A stretch of 64,000 nt of DNA, from assembly GCF_008107685.1 (NCBI RefSeq), contig NZ_VIRF01000065.1, forward strand, positions 1-64,000, read 5' to 3'. The position numbers and the translations under genes were made by a program. The notes under the pieces are model-generated. The model saw nothing but the letters and a program-made list of their open reading frames with translations. It had not been told where the DNA came from and ran no database searches. This document shows, one piece after another, positions 6,377 to 32,062 of the stretch; the stretch's first letter is position 1, and the number at the start of each line of letters is the position of its first letter. The stretch comes from Novosphingobium sp. BW1 (GTDB lineage Bacteria; Pseudomonadota; Alphaproteobacteria; Sphingomonadales; Sphingomonadaceae).

Positions 6377-6396
6377 CCGATCCGGAGAACCTGCTC

Positions 6397-16481: not shown

Positions 16482-17527
16482 TTGAGCGCAGTTCCCCGGC
16501 GCCACGCCCCGACCGGCGCGGTCACGAGGCCCACGTCCTCGAGTCCGAGGATACCCGGGCGCGCGGCGACGAGATGGGGCAGCGCATTGACGGCGGGCAG
16601 CGCGGTCAGGAAGCTCCAGTCGCTCCCCTGCCAGTCCGGGGCCACGAAGCGCACGCGCATCTCGAGATCGGGCTCACCGCGCACCGCGACGTGGTAGTGG
16701 TCGGCATCGAAAGTCCACCCTTCCTCCAGCGCCTGCGTCAGATACCAGGCAATTTCGATGCGCACCGTCTCCGCGCCGCCGATCCGCCCGCTCCAGGCGG
16801 AACGTAGCGCGCCGAAGGTGCCCTTGGGGATCTGCATGAAGCCCAGGTCCACGTTCCTTGCGGCGCGGGCGTGCGCGATCTCGAACTCCAGCGCATGGAG
16901 CGCGAGGCCGAGTGCGCCTGCCAACCGCGTGGCCGCATCGCGAAAGGACACCATGGCCCCCTGCGCGGCTTGCAGAACCGAGGCATCGGCCTCGGCGCGG
17001 CCGATGCCCAGCGCATTCCAGGTCTCCTTCGAGGCGTAGTTCGAGACATCGCTCGATTCCGAGATGGTGACGCTGTCGACGCGGCGGCACACGGCGGTGA
17101 GCCCGGCGGCGACCTGATTGATCCAGCCCGGGTTGACCCCGCTGATGAGCAGAGAGCTTCCCCCTTCGCGGCAGGCGGCCTCCAGTCGCTCCTCCACCGC
17201 GCCGGCCAGCCCGCCGCAGTTGAGGAGCAGGTTGGTGCTCACGACATTGATCCCGGCGCGCAACAGGCGCTCCAGGTGATCGAGATCGGCGAGGAAGGGC
17301 GTGTAGACGACCGCATCGGGCGCACGCGCGATGAGCGCGGCGACATCGTCTGTCGCGGCGATCCCGCAAGGCGGGAGCTGGCACAGCGCGCCCGCATCCT
17401 CGCCGACCTTGCCGGGCGAATGGGCGTAGAGCCCGACGAGTTCGAGGCGTGGATCGTCGAAAACCGCGCGCAGGGCGCAGGTGCCGACCTTGCCCGTGGT
17501 CCATTGCACCACCTTGAGGGGGGCCAT
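16478..17527 (-). CDS. Dihydrodipicolinate-reductase-like NAD(P)-binding protein
   Basis: A 349-residue protein that begins MAPLKVVQWTTGKVG, an N-terminal Rossmann GxxGxxG-type start. It continues with FDDPRLELVGLYAHSPGKVG, DAVVYTP and VVSTNLLL, as in the family related to dihydrodipicolinate reductase and 2,4-diaminopentanoate dehydrogenase that is abundant in sphingomonads and mycobacteria. GGAGA lies eight bases before the ATG. It is coupled to the Rieske ferredoxin. The substrate is unknown; a role in reducing a carbonyl or imine, or as an electron donor partner, is inference only. Confidence 0.7.
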   Translation of the reverse strand: MAPLKVVQWTTGKVGTCALRAVFDDPRLELVGLYAHSPGKVGEDAGALCQLPPCGIAATDDVAALIARAPDAVVYTPFLADLDHLERLLRAGINVVSTNLLLNCGGLAGAVEERLEAACREGGSSLLISGVNPGWINQVAAGLTAVCRRVDSVTISESSDVSNYASKETWNALGIGRAEADASVLQAAQGAMVSFRDAATRLAGALGLALHALEFEIAHARAARNVDLGFMQIPKGTFGALRSAWSGRIGGAETVRIEIAWYLTQALEEGWTFDADHYHVAVRGEPDLEMRVRFVAPDWQGSDWSFLTALPAVNALPHLVAARPGILGLEDVGLVTAPVGAWRRGTALK

Positions 17528-17690
17528 CGTGATCGTCTCCCGGTTCGCCGCGGGTGCTGTGGGCTTCCGCGTGTCGTGTGGGCGCGATCCTGACGGCGGC
17601 GCGGCGGGAGACGAAACGCCGTGGCGATGCTTGGGCCAGGGAGGAGCGGACGCCTTTTCAAGAGCGGCGTGCCAGGCCCATCCTTGTGGC

Positions 17691-19202
17691 ATGACCATGG
17701 CCCGCACCGCTACGTACACCGAAGACCTCGCCGCGCTGTGCCGCCATACGCTTGCACAGGACGGCCCGGCCGTGCGCTTCGAAGGGCAGTGGACTAGCAA
17801 GGCGCAGATACGTGCCGTCGCCTCGGGGGTGGAGGCCGCGCTGGATGCGGCTGGTGTGCCACCCGGGGCTCCGGTCGCCTTCGCGCCGCGCAATTCGCCC
17901 GCATCGCTGGCCGCGTTCCTGCCACTTCTGGCGCAGCAACGGCGCGTCCGCATGCTCTATCCTTTCCAGTCGCCCGAGGCATTGGCGGCGCGGATGGCCG
18001 AGTGCGATGTGGCTGCGCTGGTGATGGAGCGGCATGACTTTGCACCTGCCGTACTGCGCGCGCTCAGCACGGCGGGGATCGCGGGCATTGCGCTCGATCC
18101 CGGCGGGGCGGCGATGGTGGGGACAAGGGGCCAGGCGCGGTCCGCTTTGTCGTGCGTGGCGAGCGCGCCCGCACTCGAGATTCTGACCAGCGGCACGACC
18201 GGCCCGCCCAAGCCCTTCGCCATCGGCTACGATGTCGTGCTAGGCTATGTCCGCCAGGCCGAGGCGCTGGCCGGCACACGAACCGGACCGACTGCGCCCC
18301 CGCTCCTGTGCTTTCCGCTCAGCAACATTTCGGGGCTCTACTCGCTCGCCATGTCGTTCCTGTGCGGCGAGCGTGTGATCTTGCTCGAACGCTTTTCGGT
18401 CGCTGCCTGGCGCGACTACGTGGCCGAGTTCCGGCCCCCGGCAGGTGGTGGTCCCCCGGCGGCGCTGGCGATGATCCTGGAGGCGCAGATCCCGCGCGAG
18501 GACCTCGCCTCGCTACGCAGCTTCTCGACCGGCGCCGCGCCAGTCGATCCCGCCGTGCGCGCACGCTTCGAGTCGACCTACGGCATCCCGGTGCTGCAGA
18601 CTTATGGCGCGACCGAGTTCGGCGGCCCGGTGACGGCGCTCTCGCTCGACCTCCTGCGCACTTACGGCGCGGACAAGGCGGCAAGCGTCGGGCGCCCTTT
18701 CGGTCGGGCCGAAATCCGCATCCGGCGCGAGGAGGATGGCGCTCTCGCCGCCGCGGGCGAAGTGGGCCGGGTCGAGGTGATTTCGCCGCGGATGGGACCG
18801 GAGTGGATCGTGACTTCGGATCTGGGTTCGCTTGACGCGGACGGCTTTCTCACCCTTTTCGGGCGGGCCGACGGGGCGATCCAGCGTGGCGGCTTCAAGA
18901 TCGTGCCCGAGCGGGTCGAGCAGGTGCTTCTTGCCCATCCCGAGGTTGCCGAGGTCGCCGTGGTCGGCGTGCCCGAGCCGCGCCTCCACGAAGTCCCAGG
19001 TGCCCTTGTCGTACCACGCGATCCAGATCGTCCTCCCGAGGCGCGGGTGCTGAATGCTCATGTGCGTGCGCATCTTCCGGCAACGCACGTGCCCGTGCAC
19101 TGGCGTTTCGCAGGAGCACTTCCGCGTACGGTCTCGTTCAAGACCGACCGGGGCGCGGTGCGCGCGCTGCTGGCCGGGGCTGCGGTATCGCCGGACCGAT
19201 AA
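17691..19202 (+). CDS. AMP-binding acyl-CoA ligase-like protein
   Basis: A 503-residue member of the ANL adenylating family. It shows the phosphate loop ILTSGTTGPPKPF, the YGATEFGG acid-binding region, the TSDLGSLDADGFL hinge aspartate region and a C-terminal subdomain with SFKTDR at the place of the catalytic lysine. ATG 17691 and ATG 17697 are both possible starts, with no strong ribosome-binding site. It is divergent from the reductase-like gene and starts the long plus-strand block B, so it probably activates a carboxylic acid intermediate as its CoA thioester. Confidence 0.82.
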   Translation: MTMARTATYTEDLAALCRHTLAQDGPAVRFEGQWTSKAQIRAVASGVEAALDAAGVPPGAPVAFAPRNSPASLAAFLPLLAQQRRVRMLYPFQSPEALAARMAECDVAALVMERHDFAPAVLRALSTAGIAGIALDPGGAAMVGTRGQARSALSCVASAPALEILTSGTTGPPKPFAIGYDVVLGYVRQAEALAGTRTGPTAPPLLCFPLSNISGLYSLAMSFLCGERVILLERFSVAAWRDYVAEFRPPAGGGPPAALAMILEAQIPREDLASLRSFSTGAAPVDPAVRARFESTYGIPVLQTYGATEFGGPVTALSLDLLRTYGADKAASVGRPFGRAEIRIRREEDGALAAAGEVGRVEVISPRMGPEWIVTSDLGSLDADGFLTLFGRADGAIQRGGFKIVPERVEQVLLAHPEVAEVAVVGVPEPRLHEVPGALVVPRDPDRPPEARVLNAHVRAHLPATHVPVHWRFAGALPRTVSFKTDRGAVRALLAGAAVSPDR

Positions 19203-19271
19203 GGGAGAAGGCGCACTTGCCCTTGCGCGCCCGATCGCGACCATCCCAGCCAAAGAGATGGGAGCAGGCGC

Positions 19272-20453
19272 TTGGCTACGCAGACGTTCGACACCAGCGA
19301 TATCGACCAGTACCTCGGGCAACCGATCGAGAGTTCGCAGCTGCGCGAACCGATCGCGGCAAACGACATCCGCCGCTGGGTACATGCGATGCACTACCCC
19401 AACCGCCTGCACTACGATCCCGACTTTGCGGGTGAGGGGCGCTGGGGTGGGCTGATCGCGCCGCAGAGCTTTGCCATCGCCTGCGACGATGGTCACGGTG
19501 CAGCGCCCGCCTGTGTTGGACGTATCCCGGAATCGCACCTCCTGTTCGGGGGCGATGAATGGTTCTTCAATGACGTGCAGATCCGCCCGGGAGATCGCAT
19601 CTCGGTGCTACGCGTGCCTTATGACTATACCGTCAAGGACACCGGCTTTGCCGGGCCGACCTGCTTCCAGCGCGGGGACAACATCTACACCAACCAGCAC
19701 GGCGAGGAGATCGCCAAGCAGCGCTCGACCGCGATCCGCTACAGCGCGGCGGCGGGCGGGGCGAGCACGGATACGGGCAATGCGCAGGATCCGCAATGGA
19801 CCCCGGCCGAGCTGGAGGCACTGGAAGATCGCAAGTTCAGCTGGATCCAGGGCCTCCACGATCTGGGTCACAAACCGAGGTACTGGGACGAGGTGAAAGT
19901 GGGCGATGTGCTGCCCGAGCGCGTCTTCGGCCCGCATTCGCTGGCGAGCTTCGCCACCGAATGGCGTGCCTTCTACATGTCGATATGGGGCGCCTTCAAG
20001 TTTCGCAAGCAGGACCTCGAAGCGATGGGCTTCACCCGCGAGATGGCGGGCTACGAGAACGATCCCGACATGGTCCTCGTCAATCCCGAGCTGACCGATG
20101 GTGCCTATATCGGTCCCTCGCGCGGGCACCTCAATCCCGAGTGGGCGCGCCGCATCGGCATGCCGCGCGGCTATGGGTACGGCGCCTCGATGGGCTCGTG
20201 GATCACCGACTACCTTGCGGGCTGGACGGGCGAGCATGGTCGCGTCGTCCACTCCATCGCCAACTACCGCGGCCCGGCGCTGACCGGCGATATCACGATC
20301 CAGACCGCCGAAGTGACCGAGAAGTCGGTCACGGAGGACGGCACGCACCTTGTCCATGTGAAGCACCGCATGGAAAACCAGCTCGGCACGGTCATGGCGA
20401 CCGGCACCGCCGAGATCGCGCTGCCGGCAAGGCCGGACGGCCCTGCGCAATGA
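19272..20453 (+). CDS. Double-hotdog (FAS1-like/MaoC) dehydratase
   Basis: A 393-residue protein with two hotdog-type halves. The N-terminal FAS1-like domain (about 1-160) has REPIAANDIRRWVHAMHY, and the C-terminal MaoC-like half starts near YWDEVKVGDVLP. Such proteins hydrate or dehydrate enoyl- or hydroxyacyl-CoA. TTG at 19272 is taken as start because GGGAG lies seven bases upstream and the protein then begins MATQ, as does its paralogue at 33659. Its stop overlaps the next ATG as ATGA. Confidence 0.8.
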   Translation: MATQTFDTSDIDQYLGQPIESSQLREPIAANDIRRWVHAMHYPNRLHYDPDFAGEGRWGGLIAPQSFAIACDDGHGAAPACVGRIPESHLLFGGDEWFFNDVQIRPGDRISVLRVPYDYTVKDTGFAGPTCFQRGDNIYTNQHGEEIAKQRSTAIRYSAAAGGASTDTGNAQDPQWTPAELEALEDRKFSWIQGLHDLGHKPRYWDEVKVGDVLPERVFGPHSLASFATEWRAFYMSIWGAFKFRKQDLEAMGFTREMAGYENDPDMVLVNPELTDGAYIGPSRGHLNPEWARRIGMPRGYGYGASMGSWITDYLAGWTGEHGRVVHSIANYRGPALTGDITIQTAEVTEKSVTEDGTHLVHVKHRMENQLGTVMATGTAEIALPARPDGPAQ

Positions 20454-22186
20454 GCGCGCCCGATTTCGACGAGACCTACGACTGGGTCGTCGTGGGCAGT
20501 GGGGCGGGGGCTTTCGTTTCGGGTCTGGTGATGCGCGCCGCAGGGCACTCGGCACTGGTCCTGGAAAAGACCGCTTATGCCGGGGGCACCACTGCCAAGT
20601 CGGGCGGGGTCATGTGGATCCCGGCCAACCCCTTCATGCTGGCCGACGGCGAGACGGACACGATCGAGCAGGCCGAAACCTATCTTGATGCGCTGCAGAA
20701 CCTCGATGGCGGGGTGGCACCCGGAACCTCGCGGGGGAAGCGCCGGGCTTATCTGGAAAATGGCCCCAGGGCCATCGACTTCCTGCTGAGCGAGGGCGTG
20801 CGCCTGCGGCGCGGGGCGCAGTTCTGGCCCGACTACTACGACGAGCTTCCCGGGGGTTGCAAGACGAGCCGGACCGTGGTTGCCGAACCTTTCGATACCA
20901 AGCAGCTGGGGCCGATGCGCAGGCGTCTGCGCAAGGGCTTTGCCGAGTTCAACGTACTCCTGGCCGATGCGGCCAAGGTCGGCCACGCGCGCACCAACCC
21001 CGATGCCAAGAAGATGCTGGCGCGCATTGCGCTGCGCACCGTGCGGGACAAGCTGCTCGGGCGCGCCTACACCACTGCGGGCGCCGCTTTGCAGGGGCGT
21101 CTGTTCAAGGCCGGGGTGGAAGCCGGGGTGGAGATCCGTTTCGACAGCGCGGTGACGGCGCTGATCTGCGACGAAGGACGCGTGTCAGGTGTCGAGATCG
21201 CCGGTGCCCCCTCACCGCGCCGCATCGGCGCGCGCCTGGGGGTGCTGGTGAACGCAGGGGGCTTCGGCAAGAACCAGGAGATGCGCGAGCGCTACATGCC
21301 CGGAACGCGCGCGGAATGGAGCCTCGTGCCCGAGGGCGATACAGGGGACCTGCACCGCGCGATGGAGGACATCGGCGCCCAGCTGGCGCAGATGGACCAG
21401 ATGGTCGGCTTCCAGGCGACGATCCCGCCAGGCACCGAGAACGCCTATGTCCTGCCCGGTGCGCAGAGCCTGACCGGCAAGCCCCACGCCATCCTTGTCG
21501 ACCAGACCGGCCAGCGTTACATGAACGAGGGGGGCTCCTACGAGCTCTACTGCGAGACCATGCTGCGCCGGAACCGCGAAGTCCCTGCGGTGCCCAGCTG
21601 GGCCATCTTCGATGCGCAGTTCACCGCCAAGTACAAGGTCGCCGACACCTTCATCGACCGCAAGATCCCGCCCGGCTGGCTGGAGACGGGCTACCTCCAC
21701 AAGGCCGACACCATTGCCGAACTCGCCACCAGCATCGGCGTCTATGCCGGGGCGCTTTCGGCCACGGTCGACCGCTGGAACGGCTTTGTACGGCAGGGCC
21801 GGGACGAGGACTTTGCGCGCGGCGAGCGCGCCTACGATGGCTGCCACTTCGTGGGCGATCCCTATTCCGAGGAACCCTCGCGCGGGACGATCGCCCAGGC
21901 GCCGTTCTACGCGGTGCCGGTCGTGCCGGGCGATGTCAGCACCTACGGGGGGGCGGTCACCGACGAATACGCACGCGTGCTGCGGGCCGATGGTTCGGTG
22001 ATCGAGGGGCTCTATGCGACGGGGACCTCCACGGCGTCCGTCATGGGCAACGTCTATGCAGGGGCGGGCGCGAGCATCGGGCCCTCGCTCACCTTCGGCT
22101 TCATCGCCGCGCGCCATGCCGCGAGGCTGAACACCACGACCGCCGCTCCCCCGCCGCAGGGCGCCGTGGTCGAATCTGCGGCCTGA
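20450..22186 (+). CDS. FAD-dependent dehydrogenase, 3-ketosteroid delta-1-dehydrogenase-like
   Basis: A 578-residue flavoprotein of the fumarate-reductase/KstD superfamily. It has VVVGSGAGAF (residues 13-22) for FAD binding, GTTAKSGGVMWIP, and the C-terminal block TGTSTASVMGNVYAGAGASI then GPSLTFGFIAARHA. This block closely mirrors the KstD region that contains the active-site Tyr and Gly. The enzyme would introduce a C=C bond next to a ring ketone. Whether the substrate is a steroid or another cyclic ketone is open. It is translationally coupled to the dehydratase gene and followed by a SnoaL-fold gene. Confidence 0.85.
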   Translation: MSAPDFDETYDWVVVGSGAGAFVSGLVMRAAGHSALVLEKTAYAGGTTAKSGGVMWIPANPFMLADGETDTIEQAETYLDALQNLDGGVAPGTSRGKRRAYLENGPRAIDFLLSEGVRLRRGAQFWPDYYDELPGGCKTSRTVVAEPFDTKQLGPMRRRLRKGFAEFNVLLADAAKVGHARTNPDAKKMLARIALRTVRDKLLGRAYTTAGAALQGRLFKAGVEAGVEIRFDSAVTALICDEGRVSGVEIAGAPSPRRIGARLGVLVNAGGFGKNQEMRERYMPGTRAEWSLVPEGDTGDLHRAMEDIGAQLAQMDQMVGFQATIPPGTENAYVLPGAQSLTGKPHAILVDQTGQRYMNEGGSYELYCETMLRRNREVPAVPSWAIFDAQFTAKYKVADTFIDRKIPPGWLETGYLHKADTIAELATSIGVYAGALSATVDRWNGFVRQGRDEDFARGERAYDGCHFVGDPYSEEPSRGTIAQAPFYAVPVVPGDVSTYGGAVTDEYARVLRADGSVIEGLYATGTSTASVMGNVYAGAGASIGPSLTFGFIAARHAARLNTTTAAPPPQGAVVESAA

Positions 22187-22204
22187 GTGGGAAGGAAGAA
22201 CACC

Positions 22205-22699
22205 ATGGCTCTCGACATGATCGCCGCCGATTTCGGCATTCGCCAGCTGCACGCCCGCTTTGCCGATGCGGTCTGGCGCCAGGATGCAGAGAGCTTTGCG
22301 GCCTGCTGGAGCAGCGCGGGTACCTGGAAGATCGCAGGGCTCGACATGCAGGGGCGTGAGGCTATCCAGACCGGCTGTGGGCAGCTGCTGGGGCGCTGCA
22401 CGCGCATCCACCTCGTGATCGGACAGCCGATTCTGATCGAGGAGGGCGCGTGTGTACGCGGGCGTCTGGGGGTGACGGAATTCGCCTGGATGCCCGACGG
22501 CACGCAGTTCATCACCTTCGGGCAATATCACGATCGCTACGTCGAGGAAGCGGGCGCCTGGCGCTTTGCCGAGCGGTTCTGGAGCTTCAAGTACCGCGGT
22601 CCCATCGATCTGTCCGCCCCGCTTGTTCCCACGCCCGACTACGGTGCCTTTCCAGGTGCGCCGGGACCGGATGAGGAAACCTATGTGCGCAAGGCCTGA
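22205..22699 (+). CDS. SnoaL/NTF2-fold protein
   Basis: A 164-residue small alpha+beta barrel protein starting MALDMIAADFGIRQLHARFADAVWR, with the conserved helix then WRFAERFW near the C-terminus. Members include ketosteroid isomerase, polyketide cyclases and dehydratase-like enzymes. ATG 22205 was chosen over an in-frame GTG at 22187 because GGAAGGAAG precedes it. Its place beside a KstD-like enzyme and a Baeyer-Villiger monooxygenase suggests isomerase or hydratase work on a cyclic intermediate. Confidence 0.75.
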   Translation: MALDMIAADFGIRQLHARFADAVWRQDAESFAACWSSAGTWKIAGLDMQGREAIQTGCGQLLGRCTRIHLVIGQPILIEEGACVRGRLGVTEFAWMPDGTQFITFGQYHDRYVEEAGAWRFAERFWSFKYRGPIDLSAPLVPTPDYGAFPGAPGPDEETYVRKA

Positions 22700-22713
22700 G
22701 CGGTCAGGCCGCC

Positions 22714-22735
22714 TATCGCCCATGCGATAAAGCCC
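22714..22735 (+). promoter_or_regulatory. Operator-like palindrome, copy 1
   Basis: TATCGC-CCAT-GCGATA is a perfect 6-4-6 inverted repeat, followed by AAGCCC. A near copy (TAACGC-CCCT-GCGATA then AAGCCC) lies at 44301 before the second TonB receptor. This one lies about 105 bases before the Baeyer-Villiger monooxygenase start, so that gene may have its own promoter. Confidence 0.5.
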
Positions 22736-22840
22736 TTCGTGGGCAAGGCATCGCGCACTTGGGCCTGGAGGAGCGGTAGAAGGCAACAGGAGGCGAAGCA
22801 CTCACGGCATGCTGCCGGGGGGGCGCCAAGGGAAATCCGT

Positions 22841-24706
22841 ATGGCACTGACCAAGAGCAACGTACCGCCGATTGCGGACATCGATGTCGCCGCGATGAAC
22901 GCGCGCTACGCGAAAGAGCGCGAGAGGCGGCTGCGCAAGGGTGGGCAGAAAGATTATGTACCGCCCAAAGGTGCGCTTCCCGACGTGGCGAAGGATCCCG
23001 ACGTCGAGATCGTCCCGCGCCCGCCGATCACGGGGCGCACCGATGTCGTCGTACTGGGCTGCGGTTTTGGAGGTACATTGGCTGGCGTGCAGTTGGCCCG
23101 GCAGGGCGTGTCCGACTTTCTGATGCTCGACACTGCCGGAGACTTCGGCGGCGTCTGGTACTGGAACCGCTACCCCGGCATCCAGTGCGACAACGATGCC
23201 TATTGCTACCTTCCTCTGCTGGAGGAAACCGGCTTCGTTCCATCCAAGAAATTCGCCGACGGCTGGGAGATCCAGGGCTATATCCGCCAGATCGCCGAGC
23301 AATTCGGCTTTGCCGACAAGGCCGTGTTCCAGACCCAGGTGACCTCGCTGATCTGGGACGAGGGTGCTGCGCGCTGGCAGGTGGGCACCAACCGGGGCGA
23401 TCAGATCGAGGCGCGCTTCGTGATCATGGCGAACGGCGTTCTCAACATGCCAAAACTTCCCGCACTCGAGGGGATCGACGCCTTCAAGGGCAAGCTCTTC
23501 CACACCGCGCGCTGGGACTATCGCTATACCGGAGGCGAGCCCGGCCGGCCCGAACTGGACCGCCTGGCCGACAAGACCGTCGCCATTGTCGGCACCGGGG
23601 CCACCGCGATCCAGGCGGTGCCGATCCTCGCACAGTACGCAAAGAAGCTCTACGTTATCCAGCGCACACCTGCGACGGTGGATGCGCGTCCCAATCCCCC
23701 CACAGATCGCACCTGGTTCGAGAACCAGCCTCCGGGCTGGCAGGCGGCGCGCCAGGCCAATTTCCAGCGCGGCGCGATGGAAAGCTTCGGCCCCGGCGAC
23801 GAGGACCTTGTCAGCGACTTCTGGACCGAGATCAGCCGCAATATCGCCGCTGAACTCGCCGAGGAGGGCTGGCCCGAGATCGGCAGCGAGGAGTACTTGG
23901 CCCGCCGCGCCGAAATGGATCACCGCGTCATGGAACGCTTCCGCCGCCGTGTCGATGCCCTGGTCGAGGACGGCACCATCGGCGAGGCGCTCAAGCCCTA
24001 CTACTACTTCATGTGCAAGCGGCCACTGTCGAGCGACACCTACTACCCGGCCTTCAACCGTTCCAACGTGGAGCTGGTCGATGTCTCGGAAACACGCGGC
24101 ATCCAAAAGCTGACCGAGAACGGCTTCGTCGCCAACGGAACCGAATACCCGTGCGACTGCGTCATCTTTGCCAGCGGCTTCGAGGTGACCAGCGACCTGG
24201 AGCGGCGTTGGGGCATCGCGAAGATCGAGGGCACCGAAGGGCGCTCGCTTTACGATCATTGGCGCGAGGGCCCGCTAACCCTCCACGGCACGATGACCCA
24301 CGGCTTCCCCAACCAGTTCTACATCGGTTACATCCAGGGCGGGCTCAATGCGTCCGTTACTGAGCAGTTCGGTCGCCAGGGCGAACACATCGCCTGGATC
24401 ATCGGCAAGGCCCTGCGGCGCGGCGCCGAACGGGTCGAGCCCACGAAGCAGGCCATGGAGGACTACGTCGCGCACTTCGAAGCGACGACCATCGACCAGT
24501 CCGACTTCCTCAATTCCTGCCCGCCCAGTTACTTCAACAACGAAGGCGCCAAGGAGCACAAGTGGGGCCTGTTCCGCCCATGGGGCGCGGGCTGGGACGA
24601 TTTCCTGCGCTTCCTTGGCGATTGGCGCGAGGCGGGCGACATGGAGGGGCTGGACCTGCGCATTTCGCACGAGGCGCAATTGGAAGGCGGAAGGGAAGAG
24701 GCATGA
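22841..24706 (+). CDS. Baeyer-Villiger flavin monooxygenase (type I)
   Basis: A 621-residue FAD/NADPH monooxygenase that inserts oxygen next to a ketone to give an ester or lactone. It has the FAD motif GCGFGG (73-78), the Baeyer-Villiger fingerprint FKGKLFHTARWD (215-226) and the NADPH motif GTGATA (251-256). The N-terminal extension of about 65 residues is typical of long cyclic-ketone monooxygenases of the cyclopentadecanone/steroid group. AAGGGA precedes the ATG. Its stop overlaps the start of the Rieske oxygenase gene as ATGA. It likely opens a ring ketone generated upstream. Confidence 0.92.
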   Translation: MALTKSNVPPIADIDVAAMNARYAKERERRLRKGGQKDYVPPKGALPDVAKDPDVEIVPRPPITGRTDVVVLGCGFGGTLAGVQLARQGVSDFLMLDTAGDFGGVWYWNRYPGIQCDNDAYCYLPLLEETGFVPSKKFADGWEIQGYIRQIAEQFGFADKAVFQTQVTSLIWDEGAARWQVGTNRGDQIEARFVIMANGVLNMPKLPALEGIDAFKGKLFHTARWDYRYTGGEPGRPELDRLADKTVAIVGTGATAIQAVPILAQYAKKLYVIQRTPATVDARPNPPTDRTWFENQPPGWQAARQANFQRGAMESFGPGDEDLVSDFWTEISRNIAAELAEEGWPEIGSEEYLARRAEMDHRVMERFRRRVDALVEDGTIGEALKPYYYFMCKRPLSSDTYYPAFNRSNVELVDVSETRGIQKLTENGFVANGTEYPCDCVIFASGFEVTSDLERRWGIAKIEGTEGRSLYDHWREGPLTLHGTMTHGFPNQFYIGYIQGGLNASVTEQFGRQGEHIAWIIGKALRRGAERVEPTKQAMEDYVAHFEATTIDQSDFLNSCPPSYFNNEGAKEHKWGLFRPWGAGWDDFLRFLGDWREAGDMEGLDLRISHEAQLEGGREEA

Positions 24707-26127
24707 GTCAGGACAGCGCAGCCGAGCGGTTTGCGACCGGCAACATCACGCCCGAGGACATGGACGCGGAGCGCCGGGTGACCTACCCGACCGAGGCGTT
24801 TTTCTCGCGCAGCTATCTTGAGGACGAGAAGAAGCACCTCTGGCCAAAAGTCTGGCAGATGGTCGAGTGCGAGAGCGATCTGCCCAATCCCGGTGACTGG
24901 CTCACCTATAACGTTGCCGACGAATCCGTGATCGTCCTGCGCAAGGGCGACGGGTCGCTCAAAGCCTTCCACAACGTCTGCCCCCACCGGGGGCGCCAGC
25001 TCGTCTCGGTGCCCGACATGCTGCCGGACCGAGTCCACGACGTGCGCGGATCGGACCGGCGCAGCTTCACCTGCGGCTTCCACGGCTGGAGCTTCGATAC
25101 CGATGGCGCGAACACTTTCATCCTCGATCCCCAGGACTGGCATCACGAACTGACGCCCGAGATGACCTGTCTCTCCGAGGTCCGCGTCGACACCTGGGGC
25201 GGCTACATCTACATCAACATGGACCCGGACTGCGTCCCCCTGAAGGAGTGGATGGGCCGCGCGGGCGAGATCCTTGACCACTTCGAACTTGCGAAGATGC
25301 GCTACAAGTGGCGGCAGTGGGCGATCTACGACTGCAACTGGAAGGTCGCGATCGAGGCCTTCCTCGAACCCTACCACGTGGCCGGGACGCATACCCAGCT
25401 GCTGCGCTATGGCGATTATTACGCCTACTCAAAGCAGTTCGGGCTGCACTCGGTCTCGGGCTACGACACGCGCGAGGCCGATTACCGGATGAGCGAAAGC
25501 TCAGGGACGACGCGTTCGGGCAAGGCGGGGATGGACCCGCGTGTCTCGACATACGAACTCATCCGCGAGAACTACGAAACGGTGAACTACTCGGCCTCCA
25601 CCGAGACGCTGGTCAAGGCGGCAAGCCGTTTGAAGGACGAACTGCCTGAGACCGCGACGCCTCAGGAGGTGATTGCGCACTGGATGAAATCGGCCAGGGC
25701 CGACGATGCCGCGCGCGGTGTCACCTGGCCCCAGATTCCGAGCGAAATCATGGCCGAGGCCGGACTCGCCTGGGGGCTCTTTCCCAATCAGAACATCCTT
25801 CACGGGGTGACCTTCGCGCTGTGCTACCGGGTTCGCCCCTACGGTGATGATCCCGACAAGTGCATCTTCGAGAGCTATGCGCTCGAACGCTTCCCCGAGG
25901 GCGAGGAGCCCGAAACGGAGTGGGTCTATGCCGAGCCCACCGGGGAGAACTGGGGCGCGGTTCTGGCGCAGGATTTCGCTAACATGGAGTTCGTCCACAA
26001 GGGCATGAAGTCCAGCGGCTTTCGAGGGCCTCTGCCCAACCCGCACCAGGAGCAGAAGGTCATCAACCTGCACCGTAATCTTGCCCGCTTCATCGGGCGC
26101 GGGGCGCCGCGACTCCTCGAGGACTAA
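24703..26127 (+). CDS. Rieske non-heme iron oxygenase, alpha subunit
   Basis: A 474-residue catalytic subunit of a ring-hydroxylating oxygenase. The Rieske cluster has Cys93 and His95 (CPHRG) and Cys124 and His127 (CGFH). The mononuclear iron site has His225 and His230 in EPYHVAGTH, with a later aspartate in AQDFANMEF. The loop between the two Rieske pairs is about ten residues longer than usual (PDRVHDVRGSDRR). No beta subunit gene follows, so it is probably a homotrimeric enzyme. Electrons could come from the Rieske ferredoxin at 16158. It is coupled to the Baeyer-Villiger gene. Confidence 0.9.
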   Translation: MSQDSAAERFATGNITPEDMDAERRVTYPTEAFFSRSYLEDEKKHLWPKVWQMVECESDLPNPGDWLTYNVADESVIVLRKGDGSLKAFHNVCPHRGRQLVSVPDMLPDRVHDVRGSDRRSFTCGFHGWSFDTDGANTFILDPQDWHHELTPEMTCLSEVRVDTWGGYIYINMDPDCVPLKEWMGRAGEILDHFELAKMRYKWRQWAIYDCNWKVAIEAFLEPYHVAGTHTQLLRYGDYYAYSKQFGLHSVSGYDTREADYRMSESSGTTRSGKAGMDPRVSTYELIRENYETVNYSASTETLVKAASRLKDELPETATPQEVIAHWMKSARADDAARGVTWPQIPSEIMAEAGLAWGLFPNQNILHGVTFALCYRVRPYGDDPDKCIFESYALERFPEGEEPETEWVYAEPTGENWGAVLAQDFANMEFVHKGMKSSGFRGPLPNPHQEQKVINLHRNLARFIGRGAPRLLED

Positions 26128-26275
26128 GACACGGGTAATCGCCATGGCGGGACGCAATTCGCCCGCGCGGAAGGCTTCATCGTCGCTGCGGTTTTGCCCC
26201 GCCGCTGCTTGTCGAGGCAAGGGCTCTCGCCCACTCGGGCAGGGGTAAAGACATTCGGGAAAGAGGGAAACGACA

Positions 26276-28006
26276 ATGGGAACGCCGGTCTACAAGCGCA
26301 TTCTGGACCTGTTCGAGGCCGAGGGCGTCAACACGCTCTTTGGCATCCCCGACCCCAATTTCGTGCATCTCTTCCTCGAAGCGGAAAAGCGCGGCTGGAC
26401 GGTCGTGGCCCCGCATCATGAGGCCGCCGCCGGGTTCATGGCCGAGGCCGCGAGCCGAATGACAGGCAAGCCAGGGCTGTGCATCGGCACGCTGGGGCCG
26501 GGCATGGCGAACATGATGCCCGCGGTCCAGTGCGCACGGGTGGAGAACTCGCCTGTCATCTTCCTGGGAGGTCAGCGTGCCCGCGTGACCGAGCGGCGGG
26601 TGCGGCGCGGGCGTATCCAGTTCGTCCGGCAGGAGCCGATGATCGAAGATTCGGTGAAGTATTCGGGCTCGATCGAATACGCCGACCAGACCGACGAAAT
26701 CGTGCGCGAAGCGATCCGCCAGGCGCTTTCGGGCCGTCCGGGCCCTTCCTACATCGAGTACCCGGCCCACGTTATCCTGGAAGAGCTCGACCTGCCCGAG
26801 GTCGCTCCGCCTGCCAGCTACCGTCTCGTCAATCAGGGCGCGGACATCGACAGGGTGCGCGAGGCCGCGCGCCTTATCGGCGAGGCGAAGAACCCGATCC
26901 TGCTGCTGGGGCACGCCGTCCACACCACCCGCATGGGCGCGGCGGTGAAGGACCTTGCTCTGCTGATGAACTGCCCGGTCGTCCAGACCTCGGGTGGTAC
27001 GTCCTACATTGAGGGGCTGGAGGACCGCACTTTCCAGTACGTTTTCTCCGATGCCTCGCTCGAAGCGGTCGAGGAATCGGATCTCGTCGTGGCGCTGGGC
27101 ACCGAGATCGGTGAACCGCTGCACTATGGCACCACGCGCTGGTGGGCGAAAAACAACGCCACGCGTAAGTGGATCTACGTCGAGCAGGACCCGACGGCGA
27201 TCGGCGTCAATCGCCCGATCGACGTGCCGCTTGTGGGCGACCTGCGCGGTGTCGTGCCCCAGCTCGTGCGCGAACTTCAGGCCGCTCCGCGTGATCCGGC
27301 ACCGGGGCTTGCGGCGTTCATGAAGGACGGCAAGGCCGAACTCGACGCGCTGGCCAAGGAAACCGAGAGCAAGTCGGGCGGCGGCGAGGTCGGTATTCAC
27401 ACCTCGCGGATGGTGGTCGAAGCCACGAAGGCCTTCCCCAAGGACGGCATCCTCATCCGCGATGGCGGGGCCACGGTGGTCTATCAATGGACCTATTCGC
27501 AGTGCAAACCGCACGACGTGATCTGGAACCAGAACTACGGCCACATCGGCACCGGGCTTCCCTACGCGACCGGCGCGATGCTGGCCGACCGCGCGGCGAC
27601 CGGCGAAAGCCGGCCGGGCATGCTGCTTACTTCGGACAGCTCGTTCCTGTTCCACGTCGCCGAACTGGAAACCGCGGTGCGCTGCAAGCTTCCGCTGGTC
27701 TGCGTGGTCGGGGTCGATTTCCAGTGGGGTCTCGAGGTCGGCGTCTACAAGCGCACCTTCGGACAGGGCACGAGCGAGATCGGCACGCACTGGAGCAACG
27801 AGGTCCGGCTCGACAAGATGGCGCAAGGGTTCGGCTGCCATGGCGAATTCGTGGAGGACATCGCTGACCTTCAGCCTGCCATTGAGCGGGCCTATGCCAG
27901 CGGCAAGTGCGCGGTGATCCACGTCCGCATCGATCCCAAGGCGAACTCCGAGGAGATGCCCAAGTACGAGAAGTTCCGGACCTGGTACGCCGAAGGGTCG
28001 CAGTAA
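26276..28006 (+). CDS. Thiamine diphosphate-dependent enzyme (acetolactate synthase/decarboxylase superfamily)
   Basis: The 576-residue protein has the three-domain layout of this family: an N-terminal pyrimidine-binding domain with catalytic Glu49 in PHHEAAAGF, a central Rossmann-like domain, and a C-terminal pyrophosphate domain. In the metal/ThDP motif the usual GDGSF reads SDSSF, and the usual NN pair is replaced by VDFQWG, so the cofactor site is unusual. It could be a 2-hydroxyacyl-CoA lyase or a 2-oxoacid decarboxylase, releasing an aldehyde for the aldehyde dehydrogenase encoded next. AAGAGGG precedes the ATG. Confidence 0.82.
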   Translation: MGTPVYKRILDLFEAEGVNTLFGIPDPNFVHLFLEAEKRGWTVVAPHHEAAAGFMAEAASRMTGKPGLCIGTLGPGMANMMPAVQCARVENSPVIFLGGQRARVTERRVRRGRIQFVRQEPMIEDSVKYSGSIEYADQTDEIVREAIRQALSGRPGPSYIEYPAHVILEELDLPEVAPPASYRLVNQGADIDRVREAARLIGEAKNPILLLGHAVHTTRMGAAVKDLALLMNCPVVQTSGGTSYIEGLEDRTFQYVFSDASLEAVEESDLVVALGTEIGEPLHYGTTRWWAKNNATRKWIYVEQDPTAIGVNRPIDVPLVGDLRGVVPQLVRELQAAPRDPAPGLAAFMKDGKAELDALAKETESKSGGGEVGIHTSRMVVEATKAFPKDGILIRDGGATVVYQWTYSQCKPHDVIWNQNYGHIGTGLPYATGAMLADRAATGESRPGMLLTSDSSFLFHVAELETAVRCKLPLVCVVGVDFQWGLEVGVYKRTFGQGTSEIGTHWSNEVRLDKMAQGFGCHGEFVEDIADLQPAIERAYASGKCAVIHVRIDPKANSEEMPKYEKFRTWYAEGSQ

Positions 28007-28038
28007 GGATCGCGAAACGCGAAGCCGGGGAGAGGCAG

Positions 28039-29454
28039 ATGCGCGACTACCGCATGTTCTATATCGATGGTGCCTGGGTCGAACCCGAAGGCACCGAGAC
28101 GCAGGATCTCGTCAATCCGGCGAGTGAAGAGATCTCGGGCCGGATTGCGTTGGGCCGCGCGGGCGATGTCGACAAGGCCGTCGCGGCCGCACGGCGCGCC
28201 TTTCTCGCCTGGTCGCATTCGACGCGCGCGGAGCGCCTCGCACTGCTGCGCCGGATCAAGGCCGAGTTCGAGGCGCGGCAGGGCGATCTTGCTGCCGCGA
28301 TTACTGAGGAGATGGGCGCGCCGGCAAGCCTGGCGGGCGGCTTCCATACGTTCCTGGGCCTTGGCCATCTCGACGCTGCGATCGCTGCGCTGGAATCCTA
28401 CGAATTCGAGGAGAAGCTGGGCGATACGCTGGTGGTGAAGGAGCCCATCGGTGTGTGCGGCCTTATCACGCCGTGGAACTGGCCGATCAACCAGGTCACG
28501 GTGAAGGTGTTTCCTGCCCTTGCCACGGGCTGCACCGTGGTTCTGAAACCGCCGCAGCTCGCCGCTTATTCCGCGCAGATTCTGGCCGAGATCCTCGATG
28601 CAGCGGGCGTTCCGGCAGGTGTCTTCAACATGGTGCAGGGAAAGGGCTCGGTTATCGGCACCGCGCTTTCGACCCATCCCGACGTCGACATGATCAGCTT
28701 TACAGGGTCCGAGAGCGTGGGCGTCCAGATTCAGAAGGACGCGGCCGATACGGTGAAGCGCGTGTGCCTCGAACTGGGCGGCAAGAGCCCGTACATCGTG
28801 CTTGACGATGCCTCGACGATGGAGCGCGTGGCGAGCGCGGTTGCCTCGATGATGATGAACTCCGGGCAGACCTGCAGCGCGGGCTCGCGTCTCCTTGTTC
28901 CCGCCGCTCGGTTCGAGGAGGCGAAAGCGCTTGCCGCCAGGACCGCCGGGTCCCTCGCAGTGGGTGATCCTGTGGGCAATGTCGCGATGGGGCCGGTCGT
29001 CTCGAAGGAGCAGTTTGACACCGTTCAGAACTACATCGCGCAAGGCATCGCGGAAGGTGCCGAGCTGATCGCCGGAGGGCCGGGCCGCCCTGAGGGGTTG
29101 GAGGTGGGCTTCTACGTAAAGCCGACCGTGTTCGTCAGCGACAATTCCACGCTAGTTGCGCGTGAGGAGATTTTCGGGCCGGTCCTAGTGATGATCCCCT
29201 ATGAGGGGATCGAGGACGCCATCGCCATCGCCAATGACACGGACTTCGGCTTGGCCGCCTATGTCGATGGCGAAGACATCGCGGCCTGCCGGGGCATTGC
29301 GCGGCGCATCCGGGCCGGAGCGATCTATCTCAACGGCGGGTTCGACTTCGCCGCACCCTTCGGAGGCTACAAGCGCAGCGGAAATGGCCGCGAATGGGGC
29401 GCGCACGGCTTTGCCGAGTACCTGGAGACCAAGTCGATCATGGGGCACGGCTGA
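28039..29454 (+). CDS. Aldehyde dehydrogenase (NAD(P)+)
   Basis: A 471-residue enzyme with catalytic Cys279 (SGQTCSAGS), general base Glu245 (CLELGGKSP), the cofactor segment ITPWNWP and the closing GYKRSGNGRE. It oxidises an aldehyde to an acid in the cytoplasm. The start has GGGGAGAGG shortly before the ATG. It lies 32 bases after the ThDP enzyme gene, which fits a lyase/decarboxylase-then-oxidation step. Its stop overlaps the next gene's start (TGATG). Confidence 0.93.
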   Translation: MRDYRMFYIDGAWVEPEGTETQDLVNPASEEISGRIALGRAGDVDKAVAAARRAFLAWSHSTRAERLALLRRIKAEFEARQGDLAAAITEEMGAPASLAGGFHTFLGLGHLDAAIAALESYEFEEKLGDTLVVKEPIGVCGLITPWNWPINQVTVKVFPALATGCTVVLKPPQLAAYSAQILAEILDAAGVPAGVFNMVQGKGSVIGTALSTHPDVDMISFTGSESVGVQIQKDAADTVKRVCLELGGKSPYIVLDDASTMERVASAVASMMMNSGQTCSAGSRLLVPAARFEEAKALAARTAGSLAVGDPVGNVAMGPVVSKEQFDTVQNYIAQGIAEGAELIAGGPGRPEGLEVGFYVKPTVFVSDNSTLVAREEIFGPVLVMIPYEGIEDAIAIANDTDFGLAAYVDGEDIAACRGIARRIRAGAIYLNGGFDFAAPFGGYKRSGNGREWGAHGFAEYLETKSIMGHG

Positions 29455-31055
29455 TGGCCCCGGGCAGTCGCTACTCTGGGCCGGACGGTGCACGCTCTGC
29501 GCAGGACTGGACGCTGGAGCGGATCACGCGGTCCAGCCGCCTGTTCGGTGCCAATGGTCTGCGCACCGGGGCGGACGGGCGTATCTACGTCGCTCAGGTT
29601 GCAGGCAGCGCGGTGACCGCGCTCGATCCCGATACCGGAGAGGCCAGCCCCGTGAGCGCCATTGACGGGCCGATTACCGCGCCCGACGACATTGCCTTTG
29701 ACAGCGCAGGCAATCTTTATGCCACCGAGATCACGCTGGGGCGCGTCTCGATGCTGGCGCCGGACGGGAGCTACCGCGTGATCCATGGCGATATGCCGGT
29801 GGCGAACCCGATCACGGTTCATCACGACCGCCTCTTCGCAGGTGAATGCCGCATGGGCGGGCGTGTATTCGAGCTCGATGCGGTGGGCGGATCACATCGC
29901 CAGATCCTGGCCGATGTGCCCATGCCCAATGCCTTCTCCATCGGGCCCGATGGCCTTCTTTACATGCCGATCATGGCGACCAACGAGATCTGGCGGGTCG
30001 ATCCGGCCGGCGGCGCACCCGAAGTCGTCGTGGGGGACCTTGGCGTGCCGGACTCGGTCAAGTTCGATGCCAAGGGCCGGATCATCTCGACCCAGGTGGC
30101 GAGCGGGCAGGTGCTTCGAATCGACCCGCAAACGGGCGCGCGCGAGGTGCTGGCCCAGCTTGCGCCGGGCCTCGACAACTGTACGTTCGTGGGCGAGCGG
30201 CTGTTCGTCTCCTCGATCCCCGGCGAGGTGACCGAAATCCGCGCCGATGGCTCTGTCCGCCCGTTGGTGGAGCGCGGTCTGCAATGGCCGATGGGCCTGG
30301 CCCTTGCCGAGGATGGCAGCCTGTTTGTCGCCGACGGCGGGTTTACCTACACCCTTGCACCGGGCGGAGAGCCGCAACTTGCCGGCTGCCTGTTTTCGCC
30401 TGGCTTTCCCGGCTTCGTGCGCGGCGTGGTCGCGGCCGGAGAGGGTGTCTGGGTGACGACCAACTCGATGGGCGCGGTCATGCGCTGGAACACGGGCGAA
30501 GGCACGAGTACCCCGCTCAGCACGGGGCATGAGATCCTTTACGGCCTTGCCATGCGCGATACCGAAACAGTCGTGTTCGCCGATGGCGGGGCGGGGCGCG
30601 TGCTGCTTGCGGGGCCGGGAGGCCTCGAGGAACTGGCGCGCGACCTGGCGCGGCCCATGGGCGTTGCCCTGACCGCAGGGGGAGATGTTTTGGTCAGCGA
30701 AAGTGCCGGTGGCCGGGTGGTGCGCTGTGTGGGCGGCCGTCAGAAAACCGTACTCGATGGACTGGGCGAGCCGCAAGGCATTGCGGTCGTTGATGAGACG
30801 CTGTTCGTGGTCGATGTGGAACGCCAGGAAGTGATCGCGTGCGATCTTGCCACGGGCCGGCGCGAAACGCTTGCAACCGGTCTGCCGGTCAAGGCGCCTC
30901 CCGGCGTGGTCCCCAAGCTCCTGGGCGGAGTGGGCGACATGTCCGGCCCGATGGTACCCTTCTGCGGACTGGCCGCGCGCGATGCGAACACGGTTTACGT
31001 ATCAGGCGACGCGGAGGGCAGCGTGCTGCGCCTGACTTTTGAAGGAAGAAGGTGA
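29454..31055 (+). CDS. SMP-30/NHL-type beta-propeller protein
   Basis: This 533-residue protein is built of repeated blades, each with a G-NGL/DDIAFDSAGNLYA/PMGLALAEDGSLFVADGG pattern, like gluconolactonase/SMP-30 or NHL proteins. It is longer than the usual 300-residue six-bladed form, so it may hold two propellers or extra blades. No signal peptide is evident. Being the last gene of the block B operon, it could be a lactonase opening the lactone made by the Baeyer-Villiger enzyme; this is inferred from context. A hairpin-rich repeat follows it. Confidence 0.75.
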   Translation: MAPGSRYSGPDGARSAQDWTLERITRSSRLFGANGLRTGADGRIYVAQVAGSAVTALDPDTGEASPVSAIDGPITAPDDIAFDSAGNLYATEITLGRVSMLAPDGSYRVIHGDMPVANPITVHHDRLFAGECRMGGRVFELDAVGGSHRQILADVPMPNAFSIGPDGLLYMPIMATNEIWRVDPAGGAPEVVVGDLGVPDSVKFDAKGRIISTQVASGQVLRIDPQTGAREVLAQLAPGLDNCTFVGERLFVSSIPGEVTEIRADGSVRPLVERGLQWPMGLALAEDGSLFVADGGFTYTLAPGGEPQLAGCLFSPGFPGFVRGVVAAGEGVWVTTNSMGAVMRWNTGEGTSTPLSTGHEILYGLAMRDTETVVFADGGAGRVLLAGPGGLEELARDLARPMGVALTAGGDVLVSESAGGRVVRCVGGRQKTVLDGLGEPQGIAVVDETLFVVDVERQEVIACDLATGRRETLATGLPVKAPPGVVPKLLGGVGDMSGPMVPFCGLAARDANTVYVSGDAEGSVLRLTFEGRR

Positions 31056-31179: not shown

Positions 31180-31962
31180 TCACATGTCCCCCAACTGCCT
31201 TGTCACTGTCTGTGCGCCCCCGACAAGAGCCTTGCCGAGCCGAAGCCGAGCTTTCTCGTCGAGCGTGCGCGACAGCGCCAGTGCGACAAGAGCGTGCGAG
31301 GGAGTTTCGGAGGTACGGTAGACGGGCGCGGCCATTACCGTGACCCCGGCGATGTAGTGTCCCACATCGGCTGCGTAGCCTTGCGCGCGAGTCTCGAGGA
31401 CCTGCTCGCTCCACAGTGCGAAGTCGGGCGGGTTGTCCCAGCGCAGCTTCTCGAAGCGGGGGCGCAGGCGTTCCATATCGTGTCCACCGAAGGCCGCGAT
31501 GCAGCGGCCCGTGGCGCTCAGCAGTGCGGGAAAGCGGCTGCCGACTTCGGTCGAGAGGCGGAAATTGCCGGCGCCCTCGGCCACGGCCACGGCGGTGATC
31601 CGATCCAGCCCGGAAATTTCGACGCCGATACAGGTCACCGCGAAGCGTGTGGCAAGGTCGTTGAGGACCGGCTGGGCGAGGCTGGCGAAGGGATCGCGGT
31701 GCAACCAGTGGCGCGCGAGCGAAAGGACGCCGGGCCCCAGCGAATAGCGCTTCGTTGCCGTATCGAGGCTGACGAGTTCCTCCTCCAGCAGGGCGCGCAG
31801 GACGTAAAGGCAGGTGCTGGGGACGAGGCCGAGTTCGCGCGCGATCGGTTGCAGGCCCTTCGGCACTTCGCTGCGTCCGAGCAGGCGCAGAATGGCGGCC
31901 GCCCTGGCGATGGCGGGTGCCTTGCTGTCCTTCACGGCGGTATCGAGAGAGCGATCTTTCAT
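31180..31962 (-). CDS. IclR-family transcriptional regulator
   Basis: A 260-residue regulator with an N-terminal winged helix (ARAAAILRLLGRSEVPKGL, then LVPSTCLYVLRALLEEELV) and a C-terminal effector domain. It is divergent from the CoA ligase at 32063, and a perfect palindrome lies 12 bases before its start, so self-regulation and control of the divergent operon are likely. Its 3' end converges with block B across repeat copy B. Confidence 0.9.
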   Translation of the reverse strand: MKDRSLDTAVKDSKAPAIARAAAILRLLGRSEVPKGLQPIARELGLVPSTCLYVLRALLEEELVSLDTATKRYSLGPGVLSLARHWLHRDPFASLAQPVLNDLATRFAVTCIGVEISGLDRITAVAVAEGAGNFRLSTEVGSRFPALLSATGRCIAAFGGHDMERLRPRFEKLRWDNPPDFALWSEQVLETRAQGYAADVGHYIAGVTVMAAPVYRTSETPSHALVALALSRTLDEKARLRLGKALVGGAQTVTRQLGDM

Positions 31963-31973
31963 TCGATATAGTG

Positions 31974-31989: not shown

Positions 31990-32062
31990 TGAAACAGCAA
32001 GCATATTTCTGTGTACAAGGGGGCAGACCACAGGGCGAGACTCGCCCGGAAGAGGAATGGCC

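Follow-up and report, generated by a model that had tools for sequence, protein, structure and literature searches.

Which metabolic task unites a KstD-like FAD dehydrogenase, a type I Baeyer-Villiger monooxygenase (BVMO), a Rieske oxygenase (RO), a thiamine diphosphate (ThDP)-dependent C-C lyase/carboligase and an aldehyde dehydrogenase (ALDH) in one string of genes in Novosphingobium sp. BW1? The string lies at 17691-31055 of the window, a 64,000-nucleotide stretch representing bases 1-64000 of a 170,653-base contig, in a genome of 4.46 Mb that is given as 100% complete. Our analysis strongly supports the action of these five families in one pathway, and on balance we favour the view that the string is the core of a dispersed, conserved catabolic system that would open a polycyclic alicyclic 3-oxo compound, likely terpenoid- or triterpenoid-like, by a non-aromatising route. 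The enzyme families are known, while the assembled system appears undescribed.

The first-pass annotation of this DNA had placed the five enzymes in one string, and Pfam and NCBIfam scans recovered every one of them; its gene list named these enzymes correctly and omitted the CoA ligase and the MaoC protein with which the string opens (Table 1). The nine plus-strand genes, confirmed by frame composition and the family scans, are packed in an operon-like manner, with intergenic gaps of 69, -4, 18, 141, -4, 148, 32 and -1 bp (148 bp at most), the gene starts being set from start codons and overlaps. The closest named relative of the ThDP gene is found in Novosphingobium profundi EaN21-2 (98% identity).

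Co-inheritance in the genus

We searched 195 genomes of the genus and found the ThDP protein in 59, the BVMO in 58, the RO in 57 and the KstD-like protein in 68. E-value cut-offs differed between the proteins, those for ThDP, BVMO and RO having been set after earlier order-level and locus searches, and in both the order and the genus searches at most 6-8 candidates were scored per genome, with misses possible. The two-by-two tables (genomes with both proteins, the first only, the second only and neither) were 56, 3, 2 and 134 for ThDP/BVMO (Fisher p=1.4e-42); 55, 4, 2 and 134 for ThDP/RO; 57, 2, 11 and 125 for ThDP/KstD-like; 56, 2, 1 and 136 for BVMO/RO; 58, 0, 10 and 127 for BVMO/KstD-like; and 57, 0, 11 and 127 for RO/KstD-like. 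Over the six pairs Fisher p ranged from 2.4e-35 to 2.5e-45, values that overstate the evidence because the genomes are related. Within the genus, the KstD-like, BVMO, RO and ThDP genes come and go almost as one unit.

The three genomes with ThDP and no BVMO are 75-88% complete, and the two in the opposite state are 64% (G387) and 99% (G348) complete. Among 196 genomes of the order, ThDP (at least 72% identity) and BVMO (at least 54%) occurred in the same three. The BW1 genome has one BVMO match, whereas several other carriers have two or three.

Linkage across loci

Searching GTDB contigs with a profile of four ThDP orthologs gave 331 relatives, and the best 80 of them were taken as loci; their carriers belong to Sphingomonadales, Mycobacteriaceae and, as bins, Halieaceae. 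N. profundi, N. resinovorum and Sphingobium scionense are among the named carriers, and Novosphingobium aromaticivorans was not among these best 80 of 331. Within about 10 kb of the ThDP gene, with at least 40% identity to the protein of the window, homologs were found of ALDH in 66 loci, BVMO in 53, RO in 44, the beta-propeller in 33, LIG2 and MaoC2 in 17 each, the IclR-type regulator in 15, the SnoaL-like protein in nine, the alkyl-sulfatase-domain protein in seven, the sulfotransferase in five, MaoC1 in four, and the KstD-like protein and LIG1 in two each; some loci are truncated by the end of their contig, so that these counts are underestimates. BVMO and RO were direct neighbours in 34 of the 37 loci with ORF calls for the two, and ThDP and ALDH adjoined in 57 of the 63 loci holding both, while gene order varied between lineages. 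The midpoint-rooted tree of 81 ThDP proteins separated Actinomycetota from a proteobacterial clade that includes one bin labelled Myxococcota, and both clades keep BVMO, RO and ALDH as neighbours. The retention of the set in two phyla, together with its near-unit gain and loss in the 195 genomes, indicates one widespread metabolic ability.

The fetched stretch held no BVMO (at least 40% identity) in 27 of the 80 loci. Twenty of these genomes were tested, the other seven loci being on short contigs, and all 20 carried a BVMO (at least 53%) and an RO (at least 53%) elsewhere. The KstD-like gene could have been taken for a local passenger, a view overturned by its presence in 57 of the 59 ThDP genomes. 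In all eight other ThDP-bearing genomes in which its surroundings were inspected, it stood in a block of its own, together with an enoyl-CoA hydratase (ECH; 8/8), a ligase 51-53% identical to LIG3 (7/8), alpha and beta E1 subunits of the 2-oxoacid dehydrogenase type (6/8), an acyl-CoA dehydrogenase (ACAD; 66-77%, 4/8) and a Rieske ferredoxin 45-51% identical to the product of the 16158-16505 gene (3/8). LIG3 and the ferredoxin, partners of that block elsewhere, lie inside the window.

The system extends beyond the window as well. The ThDP-ALDH pair of many Novosphingobium loci is accompanied by a CaiB CoA-transferase, an ACAD, a crotonase, a CitE-like lyase relative and a relative of butyryl-CoA:acetate CoA-transferase, and the CaiB-type gene adjoins ThDP in 24 of the 38 loci holding both. 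Homologs of all these partners are present at 80-109 kb on the contig of the window, which there carries genes for CaiB, the CitE-like lyase, a CoA-transferase, ACADs, ECHs, E1 alpha/beta, TauD, short-chain dehydrogenases (SDRs), a second Glu-type RO (93457-94893) and an MMSDH-type ALDH (652 bits, over the cut-off of 448). In all, at least a dozen genes on the contig beyond the window have homologs neighbouring ThDP or the KstD-like gene elsewhere. The CitE-like lyase scored 155 bits against NF038242 (RipC), under the cut-off of 375; together with the CoA-transferase and the hydratase it resembles, by analogy, the end of itaconate or methyl-branched dicarboxylate breakdown, and a methyl-branched, isoprenoid-like skeleton would fit this resemblance.

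In a plasmid collection, four of 72,556 records matched the ThDP protein at E 1e-60. Three of them, from Sphingobium RAC03, Mycobacterium branderi and Rhodococcus USK13, carry the block; on the fourth, from Sphingobium V4, the BVMO and ThDP matches are on the same strand, separated by 1.5 kb. At 25088-28331 of the RAC03 sequence, a stretch with no listed CDS, the ALDH homolog is split into two parts, starting at 25229 and 25836, which points either to a frameshift or to gaps in the gene table. A plasmid of Sphingobium sp. WTD-1, which is not among the four records with the ThDP gene, carries a BVMO of the same group, several Rieske oxygenases, a TauD dioxygenase, an oleate hydratase and a sterol desaturase-family gene. 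Among viral contigs, 65 pattern matches were examined and none was a relative of the ThDP protein.

KstD-like, BVMO and Rieske proteins

The KstD-like protein aligns with PDB 7p18 (3e-77), and the four KSTD active-site columns, which we take to be Tyr119, Tyr318, Tyr487 and Gly491 in the numbering of R. erythropolis KSTD1 (+20 in chain 4c3x), are all identical in the alignment with 4c3x.

Type I BVMOs were recognised by two GxGxx(G/A) Rossmann motifs and the fingerprint FxGxxxHxxxW(P/D); the window protein has the motifs GCGFGG and GTGATA and the fingerprint FKGKLFHTARWD. Its nearest solved relative is PDB 5mq6 (9e-104), presumably a polycyclic ketone monooxygenase. Fifty-one of the 79 BVMO cluster members carry the strict fingerprint. 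Of the remaining 28, 19 have F, the last letter or both altered, for example YKGKIFHTARWD or FKGKMFHTSRWE, and nine, fragments included, have neither the strict nor an altered form.

Rieske non-heme iron oxygenases were identified by CxH...CxxH, YHxxxxH and a bridging acid; in the window protein these are CPH...CGFH, YHVAGTH and the motif NWKVAIEAFLEPYHVAGTH. The bridging residue of most Rieske oxygenases is Asp. Here it is Glu in 47 of 49 cluster members and Asp in none, with no motif match in two, and Glu in all six members of a second cluster. A scan with a fixed spacing of 15-19 between the cluster halves matched 0 of the 49, the spacing being longer in these proteins. Alignments show the bridging Glu in both the window protein and carnitine monooxygenase 6y9c and Asp in the ring-hydroxylating dioxygenase 2ckf; another oxygenase of the BW1 genome, 26% identical to the RO over part of its length, also has Asp. 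The RO lacks the KshA_C domain (PF19298) and matches Ring_hydroxyl_A instead.

The ThDP enzyme, its partner ALDH and the propeller

All three Pfam domains (N, M and C) of the ThDP superfamily were found in the ThDP protein, and E49, D454 and D481, presumably the catalytic Glu and the two metal-binding Asp residues, are conserved in all 32 aligned orthologs. Its NCBIfam matches are all under cut-off among the 25 listed of 50. The structure predicted from 29 aligned proteins, its relatives all being at least 72% identical, has a pLDDT of 78.7; fold comparison gave Z of 34.3-36.8 over the 50 rows listed, and Foldseek likewise brought no decision. The sequence is equally close to the HACL/OXC, acetolactate synthase and benzaldehyde lyase branches. 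PDB 2pgn, which we take to be cyclohexane-1,2-dione hydrolase, matched at 1.8e-28 and ranked below many other branches; its absence from the 50 fold-comparison rows listed proves nothing on membership. Twelve genus genomes (G217, G228, G235, G241, G242, G250, G286, G310, G334, G346, G350 and G351) have a second ThDP paralog with 48-52% identity.

Within the same pathway, the ThDP enzyme could be a 2-hydroxyacyl-CoA lyase. It would split a 2-hydroxy acid, loaded with CoA by a CoA-transferase or ligase, into formyl-CoA and an aldehyde shortened by one carbon, which would pass to ALDH (chain shortening by alpha-oxidation). The lyase reading stays a candidate because a CoA-transferase gene adjoins the ThDP gene, and the sub-cut-off NCBIfam matches of the CaiB-type copy on the window's contig, all its matches being under cut-off, include formyl-CoA transferase. 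TauD/TfdA dioxygenases, potential alpha-hydroxylators, recur in the loci, and by both sequence and fold the protein is equally close to HACL/OXC and to other branches. The details of the alignment would argue for another substrate: the HACS stretch EGANTMD reads DGGATVV in the ThDP protein, and LNNGG reads GVDFQWG, nearer to WNDGT of acetolactate synthase. As the HACS motifs are not kept, an alpha-hydroxyketone or dione substrate is favoured, and we hold the lyase reading to be tenable, though somewhat improbable.

The ALDH of the window has the Aldedh domain, LELGGK and the catalytic GQxC; among 72 cluster members, GQxC is present in 70 and LELGGK in 45. The beta-propeller had been proposed as a lactonase, and its SGL match (61 bits, over cut-off) agrees with this; it also scores just over the cut-off of the ScyD/ScyE family NF033206 (89.4 vs 80) and matches NHL-like repeats, which leaves the likeness to lactonases weak.

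Relation to the steroid 9,10-seco route

Sphingomonad breakdown of bile salts employs KshA homologs, as stated in the available parts of two articles (PMC8399759, PMC12175502). KshA_C, the domain that identifies the 9,10-seco hydroxylase, occurs in 73 of the 195 genus genomes and in none of 14 general control genomes, and had no match in the whole genome of BW1. BphC_D1 (PF22632), which marks the HsaC-type extradiol dioxygenase, likewise had no match there, as judged by a weakly controlled probe (1 of 14 control genomes, none over cut-off). The claim of the first-pass annotation that the usual steroid genes are absent stands for these two families genome-wide; HsaA, HsaD and KshB lay outside the test. 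The lack of KshA_C leads us to reject the ordinary 9,10-seco pathway for this genome, as does, for its extradiol step, the weakly controlled BphC_D1 probe.

ThDP and KshA_C are distributed independently (25, 34, 48 and 88 genomes; odds ratio 1.35, p=0.42), which together with the lack of KshA_C and BphC_D1 matches argues against the set being a branch of the 9,10-seco route in this genome. We therefore find it rather unlikely that the genes form an accessory module of an ordinary sphingomonad steroid or bile-salt pathway, feeding the 9,10-seco route, for example, by BVMO side-chain removal as in the progesterone pdc cluster. The presence of the KstD-like gene, a ThDP locus in a metagenome-assembled genome labelled Novosphingobium sp. 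Chol11 and the side-chain removal by a BVMO shown in Caenibius tardaugens (PMC12239570, available part) speak for such a module, as do the genomes with both ThDP and KshA_C; against it stand the 34 of 59 ThDP genomes without KshA_C and the 48 of 73 KshA_C genomes without ThDP.

Proposed pathway

Enzymes of these families dehydrogenate beside a ring 3-ketone, hydroxylate (Rieske), insert oxygen (Baeyer-Villiger), cleave beside a carbonyl (ThDP) and oxidise aldehydes. In the catabolic system favoured here, a ring enone beside the 3-ketone would be formed by the KstD-like enzyme, unactivated carbons would be hydroxylated by at least one Glu-bridged Rieske monooxygenase, and the BVMO would turn a ring ketone into a lactone, to be opened by a hydrolase, perhaps the propeller. 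A CoA ligase or CoA-transferase would activate the resulting acid, on which MaoC/ECH hydratases and ACADs would then act. By analogy with benzaldehyde lyase and cyclohexane-1,2-dione hydrolase, the ThDP enzyme may cleave a C-C bond beside a carbonyl (in an alpha-hydroxyketone or 1,2-dione) to give an aldehyde for oxidation by ALDH, and the CitE-like lyase with CoA-transferase, ACAD and crotonase would complete the breakdown of a methyl-branched dicarboxylate. That KshA_C is missing and a BVMO is present suggests ring opening via a lactone rather than by A-ring aromatisation.

The gene content, the operon-like arrangement, the conservation across phyla and the co-inheritance at the genome level are direct observations; the substrate, the reaction order and the exact ThDP reaction are inferred from the enzyme families. 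The first-pass annotation had taken the gene order to suggest desaturation, lactone formation, hydroxylation, cleavage and oxidation in turn. Such a linear sequence of steps is not deducible from the genes, since their order differs between lineages and the KstD-like gene is near ThDP in only two of 80 loci. Its broader proposal, a new route for an alicyclic ketone or terpenoid, fares better: co-inheritance and independence of KshA_C support one pathway distinct from the 9,10-seco route, with the substrate deduced from the families and part of the system outside the window.

Several observations, in addition to the inflated Fisher values, weigh against this reading. The nearly complete genome G348 has three BVMOs, an RO and a KstD-like gene with no ThDP match, and is a real exception; G217 (100% complete) has ThDP, BVMO and KstD-like genes and no RO at the cut-off; and 11 genus genomes carry a KstD-like gene and no ThDP. 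As 25 of the 59 ThDP genomes also carry KshA_C, a link to steroids is possible in some strains. With 549 bits against NF009478, the dehydrogenase is below the curated 3-ketosteroid dehydrogenase cut-off of 789 (none of the 25 NCBIfam models it matched was passed) and is classed as KstD-like only. The predicted ThDP model is equally near to benzaldehyde lyase, acetolactate synthase, oxalyl-CoA decarboxylase and 2-hydroxyacyl-CoA lyase (Z 34.5-36.8), and the weakly lactonase-like propeller is a candidate only for the lactonase role.

Two further explanations remain to be weighed. A biosynthetic tailoring cluster might be suspected from the NCBIfam model nearest to the BVMO, pentalenolactone D synthase (NF045818), yet the score of 574 bits is about half of the cut-off of 1100, the neighbours encode CoA ligases, ACADs, hydratases, a CitE-like lyase, TonB receptors and IclR/TetR regulators, and no terpene synthase or PKS/NRPS was seen among the ORFs scanned (part of those on the contig), which makes such a cluster very improbable. 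That the genes are chance neighbours acting on unrelated substrates, as the lineage-dependent gene order and the two of 80 loci with a nearby KstD-like gene might suggest, is scarcely credible given the near-perfect genome-wide co-occurrence of the four proteins and the 20 of 20 tested genomes with BVMO and RO elsewhere.

A narrower version of the catabolic reading, which we consider unlikely though worth stating, is a bacterial route that opens 3-oxygenated triterpenoids or hopanoids (4,4-dimethyl compounds such as soyasapogenols), in which the KstD-like, Rieske and BVMO enzymes would cut the rings, as the gem-dimethyl group blocks A-ring aromatisation, and the ThDP lyase would remove fragments. 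The available parts of the literature report that soyasaponins enrich Novosphingobium (PMC10653915, PMC8538258), that the tomato isolate Sphingobium RC1 degrades steroid-type and not oleanane-type saponins, and that the microbial pathway of sapogenin degradation is not yet uncovered (PMC10653915). If the substrate is indeed a terpenoid or triterpenoid, the set would provide genes with which the turnover of abundant ring lipids from plants and bacteria can be tested, would be relevant to saponin-driven recruitment in the rhizosphere, and would put ThDP and Glu-bridged Rieske enzymes to a new use, on alicyclic rings.

Neighbouring genes

The string and the genes around it are listed in Table 1. 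The real start of LIG2 is probably about 250 bases inside the ORF, because its RAC03 homolog has 521 aa. The alkyl-sulfatase-domain ORF and the sulfotransferase (35082-37197) are followed by a sulfatase at 41122-43440. Homologs of the former two recur by the block in several Sphingobium loci, which makes sulfated intermediates or substrates possible.

Table 1. Positions and family matches of the string and its neighbours in the window.
Gene product	Position	Strand	Matches and remarks
Rieske ferredoxin-type protein	16158-16505	-	PF00355 3.6e-15; possible electron donor
AMP-binding CoA ligase LIG1	17691-19202	+	PF00501 3e-41, PF13193; first gene of the string
MaoC/FAS1-like dehydratase-region protein MaoC1 (FAS1_DH_region)	19272-20453	+	PF13452 8e-29; TTG start assumed
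KstD-like FAD dehydrogenase	20450-22186	+	PF00890 1e-58; NF009478
SnoaL-like protein	22205-22699	+	PF13577 4e-16
Type I BVMO	22841-24706	+	NF045818, PDB 5mq6; nearest PtlE and 5mq6
RO alpha subunit	24703-26127	+	PF00355, PF00848; Glu replaces bridging Asp
ThDP-dependent C-C lyase/carboligase	26276-28006	+	PF02776, PF00205, PF02775; hallmark gene of the system
ALDH	28039-29454	+	PF00171 3e-144
Beta-propeller, SMP-30/NHL/ScyE-like	29454-31055	+	PF08450 1.5e-16, NF033206; candidate lactonase
IclR-type regulator	31180-31962	-	PF01614, PF09339; likely regulates the block
AMP-binding CoA ligase LIG2	31814-33625 (ORF limits)	+	PF00501 6e-56
MaoC-like hydratase MaoC2	33659-34798	+	PF13452, PF01575
Alkyl-sulfatase dimerisation-domain protein	35082-35873	-	PF14863 1e-12; 263-aa ORF with that domain only
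Sulfotransferase	36049-37197	+	PF13469 1.5e-40
AMP-binding CoA ligase LIG3	39018-40697	+	PF00501 2e-59

Upstream of the string and divergent from it (16158-17953, minus strand), the Rieske ferredoxin-type gene overlaps a gene with DAP dehydrogenase/DapB-like domains, the longest ORF of which overlaps LIG1. Two luciferase-like flavin monooxygenases, an M24 peptidase-type protein, an MFS transporter and an alpha/beta hydrolase are encoded at 2282-8766; type II BVMO activity is possible for luciferase-like enzymes (PMC12239570, available part). A 734-aa ORF at 51800-54004 on the minus strand consists of two tandem ACAD units.

Comparison with known systems

Among the titles and abstracts of the matches listed in the open-access literature, no cluster combining BVMO, RO, ThDP and ALDH was described, nor does this combination of enzymes figure in the available parts of the articles cited here. 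The pdc cluster of Caenibius tardaugens is similar in that a sphingomonad type I BVMO works with KstD on 3-keto polycyclic compounds. As far as the available part of its description goes, it differs in having four genes (BVMO, a luciferase-like monooxygenase and two regulators), with RO, ThDP enzyme and ALDH absent, and in leading to the 9,10-seco route with KshAB (PMC12239570). In the present system RO, ThDP and ALDH are the partners of the BVMO, and the genome lacks KshA_C. The 9,10-seco pathway (kstD, kshAB, hsaABCD) shares with it a KstD-like enzyme, here with the catalytic residues kept, and differs by the missing KshA_C and BphC_D1 matches and by the independence of ThDP from KshA_C.

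Ring opening by a sphingomonad BVMO followed by lactone hydrolysis is also a feature of the anthraquinone pathway of Sphingobium sp. AntQ-1, which acts on an aromatic quinone with BVMO-hydrolase pairs and for which the available part of the article names no RO-ThDP-ALDH block (PMC9836352). The bridging Glu recalls the Rieske oxygenases CntA and GbcA; the best NCBIfam match of the RO is GbcA, with 94.9 bits against a cut-off of 670, and the context here suggests alicyclic catabolism, not quaternary amines.

Two ThDP systems offer parallels for the cleavage step. The actinobacterial 2-hydroxyisobutyrate pathway reportedly uses a 2-hydroxyacyl-CoA lyase of the same superfamily, with a carbonyl product and CoA activation alongside; its enzyme (AcHACL) and the ThDP protein are 22% identical in the structural alignment, and we know of no BVMO or RO partners in that pathway. 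Cyclohexane-1,2-dione hydrolase, to which the ThDP protein is remotely similar, presumably combines cleavage beside a ring carbonyl with subsequent oxidation of the aldehyde, and this is the model that we propose for the ThDP-ALDH pair.

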